The notes under the pieces: model-generated
Databases searched by the model: none
Seen by the model: only the letters and a program-made list of their open reading frames with translations
What the model was told of the DNA's origin: nothing
Assembly: GCA_945898275.1 (NCBI GenBank)
Contig: CAMDHZ010000007.1
Span: 1 to 64,000, forward strand
DNA: 64,000 nucleotides
DNA from: Chitinophaga pinensis
Lineage (GTDB): Bacteria; Bacteroidota; Bacteroidia; UKL13-3
Direction of reading: 5' to 3'
Made by a program: the position numbers and the translations under genes
In this document: positions 36,322 to 43,807 of the stretch, piece after piece
Numbering within the stretch: the stretch's first letter is position 1
How the letters are laid out: the number at the start of each line of letters is the position of its first letter

Positions 36322-37032
36322 ATGGGAAGAGTATTCGAAAAACGGAAACATAAGATGTTTGCACGTTATGCAAAAATGAGTCAGGCCTTTACCAAAATTG
36401 GCAAAGAAATTTCTATTGCAGTAAAGATTGGAGGGGCAGACCCAGAGGGTAATTCAAGGTTAAGAGCTATCATTACCAATGCCAAATCCATCAACATGCC
36501 CAAGGCAAATATTGATGCTGCCATTCAAAGAGCCTCAAGTAAAACTGAGAAGGAGATGGAAGAAATTGCCTACGAAGGAAAAGGGCCTCATGGTGTAGCC
36601 ATGATTATTGAAACTGCTACGGATAACCCAACAAGAACCATTGCCAACCTTAGGGCACATATGAATAAAACGGGTGGACAGATGTTGAACTCAGGAAGTC
36701 TTGATTTCTTATTCGAAAGAAAAGGGATTTTTCTTATACCTATGGAAGGCATCGATTTAGAGTCTTTTGAATTAGAAATGATTGACTTTGGAATGGAGGA
36801 TATGGAAGAAGATGGAGAAGGAAATTATATCATCACTGTTCCATTTACTGAGTTTGGTGCAATGCAAAAAGCATTGGAAGACAATAAAATCGAAATTAAG
36901 AATGCCCAATTGCAACGCTTGCCTACAAATGGTGTTGAGTTAAATGAAGAACAATTGGAGGATTTTGGCAAATTGCTAGATAGATTAGACGAAGACGATG
37001 ATGTTGTTAATGTTTGGCATAATTTAAAATAA
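36322..37032 (+). CDS. YebC/PmpR-family protein
   Basis: A 236-residue protein of the YebC family, whose members act as a transcriptional regulator in some bacteria and as a translation factor easing ribosome stalls in others. N terminus MGRVFEKRKHKMFARYAKMS, then GKEISIAVKIGG, DPEGNSRLRAIITNAKSINMPKANIDAAIQRA and GPHGVAMIIETATDNPTRT are family hallmarks. ATG 36322 is chosen over the longer frame from 36217, which would overlap the divergent gene and has no family match before MGRVFEK. Confidence 0.93.
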   Translation: MGRVFEKRKHKMFARYAKMSQAFTKIGKEISIAVKIGGADPEGNSRLRAIITNAKSINMPKANIDAAIQRASSKTEKEMEEIAYEGKGPHGVAMIIETATDNPTRTIANLRAHMNKTGGQMLNSGSLDFLFERKGIFLIPMEGIDLESFELEMIDFGMEDMEEDGEGNYIITVPFTEFGAMQKALEDNKIEIKNAQLQRLPTNGVELNEEQLEDFGKLLDRLDEDDDVVNVWHNLK

Positions 37033-37033
37033 A

Positions 37034-38566
37034 GTGAAAACTAGGTCGTCCCGTAAACCAAAGCTTATCGAAAGGCAAGCTGAGCACTCTGATTTAAAGG
37101 CAATCATAAAATTGTCACAAATCTGCTTCCCAAAAAATGACCCATGGACCTTGCCCATGCTAGAGAGTCAATTTAAGTTGTTTCCAGAAGGAATGCAAGT
37201 AATAGAATATGAGGGAGAAATTGTAGGTTCGGCCAGTAGTTTAATTATAAGTTGGGATGAATATGATGACGACCACAGTTGGAAAGAAATTTGCGACAAT
37301 GGGTTTATCACTAATCATGATGAGGAAGGTGATACTTTATATGGCATTGAGGTTATGGTTCATCCTGATTACCAAGGTTTAAAAATCGGAAGGCGCTTGT
37401 ATGAAATGCGCAAGGTGCTCTGTTTGGAGAAGAACTTAAAACGAATTTTAATTGGCGGTCGAGTTCCAAATTACCATAAATACTCAAATGATTTTGGGAT
37501 ACGAGCCTACATTAAAAGAGTTGTAGATAAAAAAATTAAGGATCCAGTAGTTACCTTTCAACTCTCACAAGGGTTTACCATTCAAAGAATCATAAAAGAT
37601 TACTTGCCAGAAGACTTAGAAAGTGAAGGGTATGCCTTATCGTTGGAATGGATTAATTTGGATTATGTACCAGAAATTAAAGAAAGAAGTGTATTAATGA
37701 AAAAGGTTCGTATTTGTTGCATACAATACGAACTAAGAAAAATAAGAAGTTTTAAAGAATTTGCTCAACAATGCGAGTATTTCACAGATGTGGCTTCAAA
37801 TTACAAATCTGATTTCGCATTATTTCCAGAGCTTTTTACCACTCAACTTTTATCGCTGCATGAATACAAAAGTATGAGTCCGGAGGACAGTATCCGTAAA
37901 ATTGATGAATATACTGATGATTATATCGAGTTGTTTTCTCGCCTTTCCATGGAATACAACATCAATATTATTGCTGGAACGCATTTACAAGTAGAAGGAG
38001 AAAATCTGTATAATATTTCATACTTATTTAAGCGCGATGGCACTTACGAAAAGCAATATAAAATTCATATTACAAGCAACGAAAGTAAGTGGTGGGGCGT
38101 TAAGCCAGGCAATGAAATTAAAACCTTTAACACAGATTGTGGCAGGGTAGCTATTAATATATGTTATGATGTTGAATTTCCAGAAATGGCAAGAATTGCG
38201 TGTAACAAAGGCGCCAAAATTATTTTTGTACCTTTTTCTACTGATGAGAAGCATGGTCATTTAAGAGTGAAAATTTGTGCTCAAGCTAGGGCAGTTGAGA
38301 ATCAAGTTTTTGTTGCAACCGCAGGAACAATTGGAAATATTCCATCTGTAGATAACATGGACATTAATTATGCGCAATCTGGGATTTATACACCTTCAGA
38401 TTTTGCCTTTCCTCCTGATGCTATTGCAGGGGAATGCAGCACTAATATAGAAACAGTTGTTATTGCAGATTTAGATCTTGCAGCCTTAGAGAGGGCAAGA
38501 AATACAGGAACTGTTCTAAATTGGAAAGACAGAAGGAATGATATGTATGATGTTTTAGAAAAGTAA
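37034..38566 (+). CDS. fused GNAT acetyltransferase / carbon-nitrogen hydrolase
   Basis: A 510-residue two-domain protein. Residues about 1-210 are a GNAT acetyltransferase (LYGIEVMVHPDYQGLKIGRRLYEMRKVL is the acetyl-CoA motif). Residues about 222-505 are a nitrilase-superfamily amidase with the Glu-Lys-Cys triad visible: Glu in FPELFTTQ, Lys in YKIHITSNE, Cys in NICYDVEFPE. Such fusions are known in Bacteroidota; the substrate is unknown. Start is GTG 37034, 1 bp after the YebC stop, so it is cotranscribed with that gene. Confidence 0.92.
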   Translation: MKTRSSRKPKLIERQAEHSDLKAIIKLSQICFPKNDPWTLPMLESQFKLFPEGMQVIEYEGEIVGSASSLIISWDEYDDDHSWKEICDNGFITNHDEEGDTLYGIEVMVHPDYQGLKIGRRLYEMRKVLCLEKNLKRILIGGRVPNYHKYSNDFGIRAYIKRVVDKKIKDPVVTFQLSQGFTIQRIIKDYLPEDLESEGYALSLEWINLDYVPEIKERSVLMKKVRICCIQYELRKIRSFKEFAQQCEYFTDVASNYKSDFALFPELFTTQLLSLHEYKSMSPEDSIRKIDEYTDDYIELFSRLSMEYNINIIAGTHLQVEGENLYNISYLFKRDGTYEKQYKIHITSNESKWWGVKPGNEIKTFNTDCGRVAINICYDVEFPEMARIACNKGAKIIFVPFSTDEKHGHLRVKICAQARAVENQVFVATAGTIGNIPSVDNMDINYAQSGIYTPSDFAFPPDAIAGECSTNIETVVIADLDLAALERARNTGTVLNWKDRRNDMYDVLEK

Positions 38567-38571
38567 GTAGG

Positions 38572-39675
38572 TTAATAAATTGGAATTTCAACAACAAAAG
38601 AGCTGCCTTTTCCAAGTTCACTAACCACTGATATTTTACATCCTAAGGCTTCTAGCTTCGATTTAACCAAAAACAAACTCAGTCCTCTTCCTGTAGATTG
38701 TTTATGAAAGCGTTGGTAAAACCCAAATAATCTGTCTTTAAGCCTTGATGTTTCAATGCCTAGACCATTATCGATTACTTCGATGTATAATTTACTTGCA
38801 TTTTCAAACGCCCTAATCTTTAACTCTAAAGGTTGAGAATCTTTGCAATAATGAATTGCATTTTTGATTAATGTATTTAGTGTATACTGTAATATGAATT
38901 TAGGAAAATTGAGAGTCAAGTTTTCATTTATTTCTAAAAGGACATTAGCATTTACTCTATCCAATTCGCTTTTAAACTCATTTATTTCGGTTTGAACCAA
39001 CTCCTCAAGTGCAATATTATCTGATTGAAGAGGGTCTAACTTCCTTGATTCAATTCCAAGTATAAGATCGGTAAGCGTTTGATTTAGATTTTCAGAACTT
39101 ATTCTTAAGCCTTTGATTAAATCTTCATCATGACGTTTTTCTACTTCAAGTAAACTTGTAATGGCAAGAATATTGGTAAGTGGCCCACGCATGTTATGGG
39201 TGGTTATGAAATTGTACTTTTCTAGATTTTCATTCATTCGGCAGAGTTCCAAAATAATTTGATTCTTTTCCTCTATAGCCCTTTTAAGTGGTGTAATATC
39301 TCTAGAGTTAATGATAAAAGCATTTAATTCAGGATTATTTAACTGGTTATTTCCAAAAGCCTCAAGATGCAAATAAGAGCCATCTTCATTTCTAAACCTA
39401 AACTCAACTTTTTCGGCAGCACCCTCTACTTGTGTCGCTCTGCTAAAGGTTTCTGCCACAAATTTCACATCATCTGGATGCACCATTTCTAATATATTCT
39501 TGCCTTTAAGTTGATTTTCTGCATAACTCATTTTCTGTTTTGTAGAACTGCTGTGAAAAGTAATTTCACCAGCTTTATTTACAATGGTAATGATATCACG
39601 ACTATTGAGTAAAATTAACTTAAAGGCCTCTTCTGAAATGATACCTCCATTATTGAGTATATGATTGTTCTCCAT
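38572..39675 (-). CDS. PAS-domain sensor histidine kinase
   Basis: A 367-residue cytoplasmic kinase. One PAS domain (about 15-130, including NGxx IILLNSRDIITIVNKAG and HPDDVKFVAETF with a PAC motif FRFRNEDGSYLHLEAFG), a HisKA helix pair with the acceptor His160 in TTHNMRGPLTN, and an HATPase with N box TLIKNAIHYCKD, G1 DNGLGIE and G2 GRGLSLFLVKSKLEALG. The acceptor is followed by Asn rather than the common Asp. It lies 13 bp after the membrane ATPase gene, same strand. One exact palindrome copy lies in it (VQT). Confidence 0.9.
   Translation of the reverse strand: MENNHILNNGGIISEEAFKLILLNSRDIITIVNKAGEITFHSSSTKQKMSYAENQLKGKNILEMVHPDDVKFVAETFSRATQVEGAAEKVEFRFRNEDGSYLHLEAFGNNQLNNPELNAFIINSRDITPLKRAIEEKNQIILELCRMNENLEKYNFITTHNMRGPLTNILAITSLLEVEKRHDEDLIKGLRISSENLNQTLTDLILGIESRKLDPLQSDNIALEELVQTEINEFKSELDRVNANVLLEINENLTLNFPKFILQYTLNTLIKNAIHYCKDSQPLELKIRAFENASKLYIEVIDNGLGIETSRLKDRLFGFYQRFHKQSTGRGLSLFLVKSKLEALGCKISVVSELGKGSSFVVEIPIY
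38989..38998 (+). repeat. iterated palindrome GGTTTGAACC, copy 12
   Basis: Exact copy with flanks TTTC and AACT in the PAS kinase gene; encodes Val-Gln-Thr on the coding strand. Confidence 0.8.
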
Positions 39676-39688
39676 AATTCCTATGCAA

Positions 39689-40678
39689 CTATAGCGCTAA
39701 TATAATTAAATCTCGATACTCATTTGTTTGTGGCTTAAGATAATTTTCCCATGCCACTAGGTCTCCAGCACCAATTATCCAAATTACGTTTTTACGCCAC
39801 AATAAATCCTTTACATCTAAAATTTGCGCATCTATTTGTGCTACCTTCATAAATTCATACCCAGCAGGGTCGGATGGATTTATATCATCAATAATCATGG
39901 TATCAGCTACTTTCCAATCCCAAAAACTTGGACCAGGAATTTGATTGGGTGCAGATTTTATATCTGAAAGAAATTTTGCAAAGGGCACGAATGCACAGGT
40001 TTTCCAATGAAAAGCTCTTTCAGTGGCCATTCCAATGGCTAATGTTGTTTTGCCAACATTAGCCGGTCCATATACAATGACATGGGTTGGCTTGCCCTTT
40101 ACTTTTAAAAAGCTATCTACCAATTTTACATTTTGCTGATGCATAAGGTGAGGCCATTGTGAAAGCCTACATTGCCATGGAAACCTTGCTTGTTGCAAGT
40201 AAATTTTAACTGGATACCAATAACAAAAGGCTACCAAAAGGTAAATCCCCACAGCTATTAAGGCCCATTTTAAGGAGAAATTTGCATCAAAATATTGATA
40301 AAAACACAATGCACCTAGCCAAAAAAAGCAAATATCAGTAAAGGTATCAAAAAAGATGTTTAACCATTTTGGCTGAAAGGTATACTGACTTTGTGTATTG
40401 AGTTTAACTTTAGCACTATCCTTTTTTAATAATAAAGGTCCTAAAAAATTATAGGCTTCAAAACAAGTCCAAATAATTCCACTAAAGTAAGCTGCACAAT
40501 CAAACCTTTTGTAATGGGTTAATTGGTAAAATAAAACTGCCAATATAACGCCTAAAGAAAAATGCCCTAACTGATTTGCTAGCCAAGCATAGCTCAAACT
40601 AACCCCTCTATATGAATCCTTTCCAATTAAATCATCTTTAAGCTGGGTTAAAATATCTTTTAGGCTTAGTTTTTTCAT
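39689..40678 (-). CDS. membrane-anchored P-loop ATPase (DnaA/DnaC/IstB-like AAA type)
   Basis: A 329-residue protein with two parts. The N-terminal 170 or so residues hold four membrane-like helices (ANQLGHFSLGVILAVLFYQL, DCAAYFSGIIWTCFEAYNFL, FTDICFFWLGALCFYQYF, WALIAVGIYLLVAFCYWY). The C-terminal half is a P-loop ATPase with Walker A YGPANVGKTTLA at about residue 210 and Walker B DTMIIDDINP, then a sensor-like IWIIGAGDL. The pattern resembles DnaA/DnaC-type AAA ATPases. I do not recognise the fusion. ATG 40678 (MKKLSLKDIL) is preferred to 40702. A histidine kinase follows in the same unit. Confidence 0.7.
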   Translation of the reverse strand: MKKLSLKDILTQLKDDLIGKDSYRGVSLSYAWLANQLGHFSLGVILAVLFYQLTHYKRFDCAAYFSGIIWTCFEAYNFLGPLLLKKDSAKVKLNTQSQYTFQPKWLNIFFDTFTDICFFWLGALCFYQYFDANFSLKWALIAVGIYLLVAFCYWYPVKIYLQQARFPWQCRLSQWPHLMHQQNVKLVDSFLKVKGKPTHVIVYGPANVGKTTLAIGMATERAFHWKTCAFVPFAKFLSDIKSAPNQIPGPSFWDWKVADTMIIDDINPSDPAGYEFMKVAQIDAQILDVKDLLWRKNVIWIIGAGDLVAWENYLKPQTNEYRDLIILAL

Positions 40679-40789
40679 GAGGTAAAAATAAATATTGCCC
40701 AAGGTTTTATTTCTTCCATTTAATAAGTAAAACTATACATCTAAACATTCAAATCAACTTTATCCATTATTCAAAATCGGTTTTCTGAT

Positions 40790-40797
40790 TATATTTG
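40790..40797 (+). promoter_or_regulatory. predicted -7 box (TATATTTG) of the HPPD gene
   Basis: Exact TAnnTTTG match; the identical 12-mer TATATTTGCCCT occurs before folC. It ends 4 bp before ATG 40802, which would make the transcript leaderless, or gives a leader of about 20 nt if ATG 40826 is the start. Confidence 0.5.
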
Positions 40798-40801
40798 CCC
40801 T

Positions 40802-41926
40802 ATGGAAAGAAATGAAAAAGAAATAATGTCAGAAACTTCTGATTTTTTACCTTTATTGGGAACAGACTATATAGAACTTTGGGTTGGTAATGCAAAACAA
40901 GCTGCACACTACTATAAAACGGCCTTTGGCTTTCAAAGTCTTGCCTATGCTGGACCAGAAACTGGGGTAAAAGATAGAACTTCATACGTTTTGGTTCAAA
41001 ACAAAATGAGATTGATGTTAACCTCTCCATTACATTCTAACTCAGAAATAGCAGAACACCACAAAAAACACGGAGATGGCGTAAAGGTGCTTGCTTTATG
41101 GGTTGATGATGCTTATGACGCATTCGAGCAAACCACAAAAAGAGGCGGAAAACCCTACCTTCAGCCCACAACCTTAACAGATGCCGATGGAGAAGTTAGA
41201 ATGAGTGGAATTCACACTTATGGTGAAGTGGTTCATTTGTTTATAGAAAGAAAAAATTATACTGGGGCATTCATGCCTGGGTTCAAAAAACTAGAAAGTA
41301 CTTATAATCCAGAACCAGTTGGTTTATTGTATGTTGACCATTGTGTGGGTAATGTTGGTTGGAACCAAATGAATCCTTGGGTAAAGTTTTATGAAGAGGT
41401 TATGGGTTTCAAAAATATTTTATCTTTTGATGACAATGATATCTCTACGGAATATTCAGCCTTAATGAGCAAGGTTATGAGTAATGGAAACGGATATGTT
41501 AAGTTTCCTATCAACGAGCCGGCTGAAGGAAAAAGAAAATCGCAAGTTGAAGAATATTTAGAATTCTATGAAGGGGAAGGAACACAACACATTGCAATTG
41601 CTACTCAAGATATAGTTTCTACAGTTAAACAATTAATGGCTAGAGGAGTAGAGTTTTTAAAAGTACCAAATACGTATTATGATGACTTGTTAGACCGAGT
41701 TGGTCCTATTGAAGAGGATTTAGAACCATTAAGAGAACTAGGAATATTGGTGGATAGAGATGATGAAGGCTATTTGTTACAGTTATTTACCAAACCTGTG
41801 GAAGATAGACCAACCATGTTCTATGAGATTATTCAAAGAAAAGGCGCAAAATCTTTTGGAAAGGGTAATTTCAAAGCACTTTTCGAAGCCATTGAAAGGG
41901 AACAAGAACTTAGAGGAAATCTTTAA
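40802..41926 (+). CDS. hpd: 4-hydroxyphenylpyruvate dioxygenase
   Basis: A 374-residue Fe(II) dioxygenase that makes homogentisate from 4-hydroxyphenylpyruvate. Two vicinal-oxygen-chelate domains: the N-terminal one begins at GTDYIELWVGNAKQAAHYY, the C-terminal one at LLYVDHCVGNVG. The three iron ligands lie in VDHCVGN (His), QHIAIAT (His) and PTMFYEIIQRKGAKSFGKGN (Glu). A second in-frame ATG at 40826 (MSETSDF) is a good alternative start because the promoter box lies so close to 40802. The product is used by hmgA at 17046. Confidence 0.95.
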   Translation: MERNEKEIMSETSDFLPLLGTDYIELWVGNAKQAAHYYKTAFGFQSLAYAGPETGVKDRTSYVLVQNKMRLMLTSPLHSNSEIAEHHKKHGDGVKVLALWVDDAYDAFEQTTKRGGKPYLQPTTLTDADGEVRMSGIHTYGEVVHLFIERKNYTGAFMPGFKKLESTYNPEPVGLLYVDHCVGNVGWNQMNPWVKFYEEVMGFKNILSFDDNDISTEYSALMSKVMSNGNGYVKFPINEPAEGKRKSQVEEYLEFYEGEGTQHIAIATQDIVSTVKQLMARGVEFLKVPNTYYDDLLDRVGPIEEDLEPLRELGILVDRDDEGYLLQLFTKPVEDRPTMFYEIIQRKGAKSFGKGNFKALFEAIEREQELRGNL

Positions 41927-42006
41927 TTTAAGGGCTTTACGCCTTCTTGTTTTTGACAATCTTTACTTCAAGTTTTCTTTAACATAAGGAAACAAACTAT
42001 TTTTAC

Positions 42007-42014
42007 TATTTTCG
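42007..42014 (+). promoter_or_regulatory. predicted -7 box (TATTTTCG) of lepA
   Basis: TAnnTTCG, one base from consensus, ending 5 bp before the lepA ATG at 42020; implies an almost leaderless transcript. Confidence 0.35.
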
Positions 42015-42019
42015 CGCCA

Positions 42020-43807
42020 ATGGACCATATTAGGAATTTTTGCATTATTGCACATATTGATCACGGGAAAAGTACACTTGCAGACAGGTTGCTTGAATAC
42101 ACAAACACAACCTCAAAGCGTGAAATGCAAGCACAGGTTTTAGATGATATGGACCTGGAAAGAGAAAGAGGGATTACCATTAAAAGTCATGCTATCCAAA
42201 TGGATTACAGCTTGGATGGAAAAAAATATACGCTAAATCTGATTGATACGCCGGGTCACGTTGATTTTAGTTATGAGGTTTCAAGATCAATTGCAGCTTG
42301 CGATGGAGCCCTTTTAATTGTTGACTCTAGTCAAGGAATCCAAGCGCAAACCATTTCAAATTTATACCTTGCAATTGACCAAGGATTAGAAATCATTCCA
42401 ATTCTCAATAAAATTGATTTACCTCATTCAATGCCTGAAGAGGTTAGTGACCAAATCATTGATTTAATAGGTTGCGATTATACAGATATCTTAAGAGCTT
42501 CTGGTAAAACAGGTGCAGGTGTTCATGAAATTCTTAAAGCAATTGTTCACCGAGTTCCAGCTCCCAAAGGAAATGCTGAGGCTCCTTTAAAAGCTTTAAT
42601 TTTTGATTCGGTTTTCAACTCTTTTAGAGGCATTATTGCTTATTTTAGGGTGTATGATGGCGTTATTAAAAAGGGAGACAAGGTTAAATTCATGTCTACC
42701 GGCGCAGAATATATTGCAGAAGAAGTTGGCGTATTAAGGTTACAACAAGAACCAAAAGCAGAAATTAGAGCTGGAGATGTTGGTTATATTATTTCTGGAA
42801 TTAAAGAAGCAAGAGAAGTTAAAGTTGGGGATACCTTAACCCACATCGACAGGCCTACAAATGAAGCTGTTAAAGGTTTTGAGGATGTTAAACCTATGGT
42901 TTTTGCTGGTATTTATCCTGTAGATACAGAAGATTTTGAAGAATTAAGAGAAAGCATGTATAAACTGCAATTAAATGATGCTTCTTTAACTTTTGAACCA
43001 GAGTCGTCTGCAGCATTAGGGTTTGGTTTCCGTTGCGGATTTTTAGGAATGCTGCACATGGAAATTATTCAAGAACGTTTGGAACGTGAATTTAAAATGA
43101 CCGTAATTACCACCGTTCCCAATGTAAGTTACCATGCCTACACCAATAAGGACGAAATGATTGTGGTTAACAATCCTAGTGATTTACCAGAACCCAATTA
43201 TATAGATCACGTTGAGGAGCCTTTTATCAATGCTCAAATCATTACCCATTCTGATTATGTAGGCGCCATAATGGGCCTTTGTCTTGGAAAAAGAGGAATT
43301 CTAAAAGAACAAAAATACCTAACCACCAATAGGGTTGAATTAATTTTTGATATGCCTTTAGCAGAGGTTGTGTTCGACTTTTTTGATAAACTTAAAACTA
43401 TCTCAAGAGGATATGCCTCTTTTGATTACCATCCGATTGGTTATGTGGCTTCCGACTTAGTTAAATTAGACATTTTACTTAACAAGGAACAAGTGGATGC
43501 TTTGTCTGCAATTATTCATAGAGATAGAGCCTATGACTTTGGAAAAAGAATTTGTGAGAAATTAAAAGATTTAATACCAAGACACCAGTTCGAAATTCCA
43601 GTTCAAGCCTCAATTGGTGCCAAAGTTATTGCAAGAGAATCTATACGCGCCCTAAGAAAAGACGTTACAGCAAAATGTTATGGAGGAGATATTTCAAGAA
43701 AACGTAAGCTCCTTGAAAAACAAAAAGAAGGTAAAAAACGCATGCGTCAGGTAGGGTCAGTTGAAATTCCTCAATCTGCATTCATGGCTGTATTAAAACT
43801 TGACTAA
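42020..43807 (+). CDS. lepA: elongation factor 4 (LepA)
   Basis: A 595-residue translational GTPase that acts on ribosomes in translation stress or initiation. G1 is [16 protein letters not shown], switch region [13 protein letters not shown]3 [16 protein letters not shown]4 NKIDLPH, and the C-terminal LepA-specific domain ends [19 protein letters not shown]. Length matches the family. It is followed by folD after 12 bp. Confidence 0.97.

Follow-up and report, generated by a model that had tools for sequence, protein, structure and literature searches.

A lipocone-like membrane domain joined to a DnaC/IstB-type AAA+ core, and its PAS-domain partners in Bacteroidota

What is the role of a P-loop ATPase that begins with membrane helices and is encoded beside a PAS histidine kinase? 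The question is raised by a minus-strand gene (positions 39689..40678) in a 64,000-nucleotide stretch of Chitinophaga pinensis DNA, hereafter the window. The gene encodes a membrane AAA+ protein of 329 amino acids with homologues across its full length; its stop codon lies at 39689-39691 and its ATG at 40678, where the family alignment also begins, and the plus strand of the same interval is riddled with stops. The initial annotation, made from the sequence alone, described a DnaA/IstB-like ATPase with four membrane-like helices, knew no named family for this layout and proposed a membrane STAND-like or signalling ATPase. The lack of a named family was borne out: the window protein brings no Pfam or NCBIfam family to its cut-off, and searches of Pfam, NCBIfam, PHROGs and PADLOC gave weak P-loop matches only, the best to a DnaC-like phage family (2.3e-8). 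No Rfam family reached its gathering threshold within 37000-43000. We favour, tentatively and at somewhat less than an even chance, the reading that the gene provides the membrane arm of an envelope or lipid signalling module, whose ATPase communicates with a PAS-domain partner.

An AlphaFold model of the protein (pLDDT 90.9, pTM 0.89) and an alignment of 81 family sequences delimit two domains, in agreement with the annotated combination of four helices and a P-loop. The N-terminal domain (residues 1-176, 40151..40678, minus strand) consists of a short helix (residues 6-18) and four transmembrane (TM) helices, placed by the model and by hydropathy at residues 28-53 (40520..40597), 59-84 (40427..40504), 105-130 (40289..40366) and 134-164 (40187..40279). 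The C-terminal domain (residues 177-329, 39692..40150, minus strand) was assigned by profile and fold comparison to the IstB/DnaC/DnaA type of AAA+ modules. It carries a Walker A motif, GPANVGKT (residues 204-211, 40046..40069), and a Walker B strand, TMIIDDINP (residues 260-268, 39875..39901, with IIDD at 262-265); Walker A reads GK[ST] in 77 of the 81 aligned sequences, and the Walker B pair, D264 and D265, is invariant in all 81. Averaged over the 81 sequences, the positive charge is 5.4 on the N-terminus, 0.9 on loop 1, 4.2 on loop 2 and 0.2 on loop 3; the short loop 1 of the window's own protein has 2 K/R. Because positive charge is found family-wide on the N-terminus, loop 2 and the C-tail, the four-helix protein is predicted to be N-in/C-in, with the N-terminus, loop 2 and the ATPase in the cytoplasm.

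The N-terminal domain is the better conserved half of the protein. H39 (40562-40564) on TM helix 1, E74 (40457-40459) and N77 (40448-40450) on TM helix 2, and D111 (40346-40348), D115 (40334-40336) and G122 (40313-40315) on TM helix 3 are invariant in 81/81 sequences and lie on successive helices of the model; Q12, D16, G19, K20, D21, R24, G25, N35 and Q36 are also among the invariant columns. Burroughs, Nicastro and Aravind 2025 (PMC12419801) describe, in the main text, a lipocone pattern in which H2 carries a His, H3 a Glu with a further polar residue near its end, and H4 an Asp, a second polar residue and a Gly. In the same text DUF2238 is assigned to the Wok family of the lipocone superfamily, and lipocones are proposed to act chemically on lipid head groups. 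Pfam DUF2238 (PF09997) matches 26 of the 81 family members at E<=0.1 (best 5e-4), with bit scores, 19.5 and 19.2 in genomes G049 and G058, under the Pfam cut-off of 26.4; the window protein is not listed among the PF09997 matches. In a profile-profile comparison, the family N-domain scored 37.3 (E 6.7e-5) against 17 DUF2238 proteins, a weaker score than against a 4-sequence set (47.6, E 6.6e-7), while 100 column shuffles gave a mean of 15.1 and a maximum of 28.4, and the reversed profile 16.2. The H, E, D-x-x-x-D and G columns line up with those of DUF2238. Overlooked by the initial annotation, the helices thus resemble a conserved DUF2238 domain, and we call the domain lipocone-like, apparently nearest to DUF2238 as a distant relative. 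Judged by this conservation, the helices of the membrane ATPase are more than a plain anchor.

Three points qualify the comparison. The lipocone fold is unproved, as the N-domain alone has no Foldseek match among solved structures at E<=0.001 (best VIA Z 7.0). The N-terminal two-TM extension that PMC12419801 describes for Wok is absent, since just the short helix 6-18 precedes TM helix 1 in the model and in hydropathy. Finally, the conserved polar residues are predicted from the charge pattern to lie nearer the cytoplasmic side, whereas the outer leaflet is the predicted site of action of integral-membrane lipocones in the main text of PMC12419801. Two other resemblances were rejected: a likeness to the photosystem I L-subunit (Z up to 7.0) is at the level of common arrangements, and kinship with VanZ is unsupported (hhalign 0.6 percent). 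Across 395 genomes of the phylum, the N-domain profile found 2 fused genes and 8 other places with weaker matches (1e-6 to 9e-4); seven of the eight (all but L218) were read as ORFs and appear to be stand-alone DUF2238-type proteins. In the ATPase genes of L052, L079, L117 and L126, Walker A departs from GK[ST] and the lipocone-type residues are still invariant.

The C-terminal domain is indeed DnaA/IstB-like, as annotated. A profile of the 81 sequences matched DnaI (4.5e-7), DnaC (8.8e-7) and IstB (8.5e-6) in the PDB. The domain model aligned with IstB 5bq5 at Z 14.3 (rmsd 3.2 over 147), DnaC 3ec2 at Z 13.4 (rmsd 3.2 over 148) and DnaA 1l8q at Z 13.0 (rmsd 3.3 over 146), and these three top the AAA+ rows of the fold comparison, in which the clade spans Z 11.4-14.3. 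The window protein itself scores 16.6 bits against IstB (PF01695), under the Pfam cut-off of 24.1. Matches to RecA, p97 and similar PDB sequences were set aside as they cover the P-loop region only. The idea of a DnaA paralogue was also rejected: among the matches listed, those that are not full-length cover the P-loop region only (residues ~193-311), and in the class genomes such matches lie in ORFs of ~411-534 aa, which were read as DnaA without individual testing. An arginine finger is a feature of the IstB/DnaC/DnaA clade of AAA+ proteins. At residue 290, 43 of the 81 sequences have R and 14 have K, and the columns inspected around strand 4 hold no invariant Arg; with none near the usual position of the finger, the ATPase may be weak or a nucleotide switch only.

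Which gene accompanies the membrane ATPase elsewhere? A set of genome contigs had the gene at 93 places, and the analysis retained the best 80; as the scan required either of two short peptide patterns to be present, it favours close relatives. A convergent (tail-to-tail) gene for a PAS-LuxR protein lies on the 3' side of the ATPase gene at 63 of these 80 loci. Clustering found 62 of these partners (242-279 aa) and tblastn brought the total to 63 by adding that of L076, which lies under an overlapping ORF. The spacing is within 60 bp in 60 of the 63, and the PAS-LuxR gene overlaps the ATPase ORF in 23 of 62. Six copies were compared with Pfam: the LuxR HTH was above the cut-off in five and at it in one, and the PAS fold was above it in one, below in four and unlisted in one. 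Outer neighbours vary, and are housekeeping-like genes where read by eye. Since many loci are related, the locus counts are not independent. In 195 genomes of one family, both genes occur in 7, the ATPase only in 3 (G348, G576 and G487, the last with a weak PAS-LuxR paralogue only), the PAS-LuxR only in 1 (G629) and neither in 184 (Fisher test, 5e-10). Pairwise distances of the two proteins are correlated (Mantel r 0.82 over 62 pairs; maximum of 2000 permutations 0.19), a correlation to which shared descent adds. Seventeen of the 80 loci lack an adjacent PAS-LuxR gene, and a search covering part of their genomes found an unlinked one in two (L064, L114). At L095:1801-3466, two tandem PAS-LuxR genes stand by one ATPase gene.

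The window itself has another partner. The neighbouring PAS histidine kinase (367 aa, 38572..39675, minus strand) starts 13 bp 3' of the ATPase stop, as the initial annotation had it, lies on the same strand and matches HATPase_c (1.6e-14) and PAS_3 (3.8e-9) in Pfam. A PAS histidine kinase also follows the ATPase gene on the same strand in the rest of the window's clade (L048, L049), in L086 (G044) and in L079 (G445). The best match of the window's kinase in G044 is the kinase adjoining the ATPase (3.8e-73; next best 1.1e-35), and the same holds in G445 (6.4e-73; next best 9.1e-22); in G034 a comparable kinase (2.5e-70) lies away from the ATPase. The annotated kinase linkage is thus kept in other genomes, but the usual partner in the loci examined is the tail-to-tail PAS-LuxR gene. 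On the ATPase tree, kinase-bearing rows are nested among PAS-LuxR rows and 2 changes are needed; a single origin of the kinase linkage is possible, and L086 and L079 are long branches of unsure placement. Because of this nesting, and because a search for a full-length PAS-LuxR found none in G000, G005, G008, G044 and G445, the PAS-LuxR partner was probably swapped for a PAS histidine kinase in the window's clade, L086 and L079. The window's kinase has no response-regulator gene next to it. At L079:4780-6588 the kinase gene is interrupted by a single in-frame TAA and is read as two ORFs, a PAS part with a weak receiver-like N-terminus and then the HATPase. At L116 another sensor, a 7TMR-DISM-type kinase, is convergent with the ATPase gene, with a 4 bp overlap.

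Alignment of promoters revealed an inverted repeat common to PAS-LuxR genes of Pedobacter and Chitinophaga. Searched as ACTGCG-N6-CGCAGT with up to 2 mismatches, the candidate operator, (A/C)CTGCG-N6-CGCAGTTG, was present upstream of the PAS-LuxR gene in 56 of 62 regions, which include those from which the motif was derived, and absent in L070, L071, L080, L095, L099 and L117. The spacer was always 6 in the 56, with 0 matches at spacers 3-5 and 7-11, and letter-shuffled controls of these regions gave one match, at spacer 5. Held-out PAS genes had the operator in 7 of 9 cases, L176 and the weak paralogue L178 being without it. A stricter pattern gave 48 matches in 37 genome entries with PAS-LuxR (30 of the 37 having a match) and 1 match in 16 entries without, where likely duplicates (G514 = G976, G049 = G446) probably bring the 37 and 16 entries down to 36 and 15 genomes; the backward pattern gave 0 in all 53. 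At the tandem locus L095, the farther PAS-LuxR copy has the operator and the nearer is without. The PAS-LuxR gene at L215:6939-7673 (G629), an orphan regulator in a genome with no ATPase gene at E<=1e-30, also has an operator. Upstream of ATPase genes the operator was found in 0 of 78 (80 regions examined, 78 having 250 nt upstream), also with aligned starts, and it is likewise missing upstream of the window's ATPase and kinase genes. The operator thus lends no support to co-regulation.

By position, 19 distinct operator sites in 13 of the 37 entries lie outside PAS-LuxR promoters. The recurrent case is a patatin-like phospholipase gene (PF01734 at 2.3e-20 in the one copy tested), which has the operator 54-66 bp upstream in 3 of 6 Pedobacter genomes searched; the site is conserved there while its flanks have diverged. 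The three Pedobacter genes are L271:4219-5277, L272:4249-5304 and L274:2909-3964, and the loci L271 and L272 each carry a second operator at the opposite side of the patatin gene.

A lipid-type pocket, an AAA+ core and a PAS output with a phospholipase as candidate target are together best read as a membrane or envelope signalling module. The N-terminal four-helix lipocone-type pocket would bind, and possibly modify, a lipid head group, with its conserved polar residues facing the cytoplasmic side, as the positive-inside pattern predicts. The AAA+ module at the cytoplasmic face would bind ATP, its state being coupled to that of the pocket. The PAS partner would be the PAS-LuxR in most Bacteroidota loci examined and the soluble PAS histidine kinase in the window's clade, and the PAS-LuxR would bind AACTGCG-N6-CGCAGTT at its own promoter and at envelope or lipid genes, such as the patatin phospholipase in some Pedobacter. 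Computation supports the architecture, the invariant residues, the linkage and replacement of the partner, and the operator sequence; from these we infer that PAS-LuxR would occupy the operator, that lipid would be bound or chemically altered, that ATP would be used, that the ATPase would contact the PAS protein and in which direction the signal would run. Doubtful, but possible, is the broader claim that these genes form a new class of membrane-to-transcription switch, in which an ATP-driven lipocone with a DnaC/IstB-clade AAA+ module reads or changes a lipid head group and passes its state to an exchangeable PAS output (PAS-LuxR or PAS histidine kinase), which resets envelope lipids through a defined operator.

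An unlikely but serious alternative is that the protein is a lipid-headgroup enzyme, in which the AAA+ tail only regulates assembly or activity, and that PAS-LuxR is an ordinary upstream regulator of lipid metabolism receiving no signal from the membrane protein. In its favour, the lipocone active-site positions are all kept in 81/81, stand-alone DUF2238 relatives exist, and the main text of PMC12419801 proposes some Wok proteins as cardiolipin synthases. Yet with the operator at 0/78 ATPase genes PAS-LuxR does not obviously control the enzyme, and a histidine kinase can stand in for it as the partner.

The distribution of the family bears on a further alternative. The full-length gene was found in 9 of 98 genomes searched and in 3 of 19 genomes of its own genus (the window's own included in both), a tenth of the 98 (G085) giving a P-loop match alone. 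It was also found in 6 of 395 class genomes, among the matches listed, and the family of G348 has it in 10 of 195 genomes, with one copy split. Its recurrence at full length, here and at the 93 genome-contig places, speaks against chance. Titles at the genome-contig loci name Pedobacter, Chitinophaga, Polaribacter, Wenyingzhuangia, Tenacibaculum, Aquimarina, Leadbetterella and Bacteroidota MAGs. In the searches made, the membrane ATPase family has a patchy distribution, with all its finds in Bacteroidota. Such patchiness would suit an anti-phage or abortive-infection module, with the membrane ATPase as sensor or executor and a patatin effector induced by PAS-LuxR; the L271 patatin gene, the Pedobacter copy tested, best matches a PADLOC phospholipase effector model (2.7e-66), and weak nSTAND3 matches occur in 27 of the 81 members. 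We nevertheless consider a defence role improbable. Two ATPase relatives, one PAS-LuxR and three window neighbours have no PADLOC match at E<=1e-5, and the window protein's best is 0.013. Outer neighbours are housekeeping-like where read by eye, viral contigs and plasmids gave no match, and phages gave no full-length relative, with 3 records matching the P-loop part only. A partner and an operator that are stable over several families are also unlike arms-race genes. At L175:6314-7451 (G491) the membrane ATPase gene is split in two ORFs and its PAS-LuxR partner is intact.

The STAND-like half of the initial proposal fared worse than the signalling half, which is our best reading. That the protein is a membrane-anchored STAND-like or signalling NTPase, with helices that merely anchor it, would fit a P-loop ATPase adjoining a PAS kinase, but it has a slim chance. 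Across the 81 members, IstB (57 matches, best 8.1e-8) and DnaA (48, 9e-7) match better than nSTAND3 (27, 8e-5), and the helices hold many invariant residues in a lipocone pattern. In STAND NTPases the NTPase core is followed by a C-terminal half of helices or repeats. In the model the chain ends at 329, directly past the last AAA+ strand (E323-328); there is thus no STAND-like C-terminal half, and the C-terminal domain, as modelled, is a stripped AAA+ core that terminates with its last strand. It is very improbable that the protein tethers DNA or the replication machinery to the membrane, acting like a DnaC/IstB/DnaA paralogue, for although IstB, DnaC and DnaA are the nearest AAA+ relatives, no further domain follows the core, no invariant arginine is seen near the usual finger position, and the usual neighbour is a PAS regulator and not a helicase or transposase.

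Proteins of the IstB/DnaC/DnaI/DnaA clade have DNA- or helicase-binding parts where the window protein has its membrane N-terminus. The window protein shares their fold and both Walker motifs, and differs in its membrane-embedded N-terminus and in the arginine noted above. It is like Wok/DUF2238 (PF09997) in its profile-detectable membrane helices with aligned H, E, D..D and G, and unlike it in scoring under the Pfam cut-off, in lacking the two-TM extension and in being fused to AAA+. Soluble PAS histidine kinases are a general type, which the window's partner resembles in combining PAS and HATPase; it differs in that its orthologues follow a membrane ATPase gene in three lineages. Membrane lipocone genes linked to transcription regulators are known, since the main text of PMC12419801 describes VanZ-1 with HAAS/PadR and Skillet with a wHTH; the present family belongs to another lipocone branch, with a fused AAA+ module, a PAS-LuxR or PAS histidine kinase partner, tail-to-tail order and an operator. 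That main text makes no mention of AAA, STAND, PAS, LuxR, DnaC, NTPase, IstB or P-loop. The lipocone-plus-regulator theme is thus already known, and the AAA+ fusion, the partner swap and the operator, none of them found in the literature searched, appear new.

If the preferred reading is right, a DNA-replication-type AAA+ module has come to drive a membrane lipid sensor or enzyme, and the DUF2238/lipocone theme acquires a biology open to experiment, with a linked regulator, a candidate operator of precise sequence and, in the phospholipase, its first predicted target. An ATPase that has, in most of the relatives examined, a tail-to-tail regulator with its own conserved candidate site points to an undescribed membrane-to-gene signalling module, and a transcription factor traded for a histidine kinase next to one and the same membrane protein would let the rewiring of sensors be studied as a natural experiment. 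Relatives occur in genera with named strains (Pedobacter, Chitinophaga and Polaribacter).

Other candidate operator sites, each in a single genome, precede genes for a sugar transferase, an M15 peptidase, a response regulator, a YbjQ protein and RteC; the extra site in G978 falls within a gene, and that in G992 was read from position only. At L268:3284-5671 (G986), the operator lies 23 bp upstream of a NarL-type response regulator, beside which small peptides with double-glycine-leader-like sequences and apparent export genes (read by eye) resemble a bacteriocin cluster. At L261:398-7747 (G969), three operators fall within 7 kb: the first is at the PAS-LuxR promoter and shared with a divergent gene of 437 aa, and the others precede a gene of 343 aa and an M15 D,D-carboxypeptidase, a possible local regulon.
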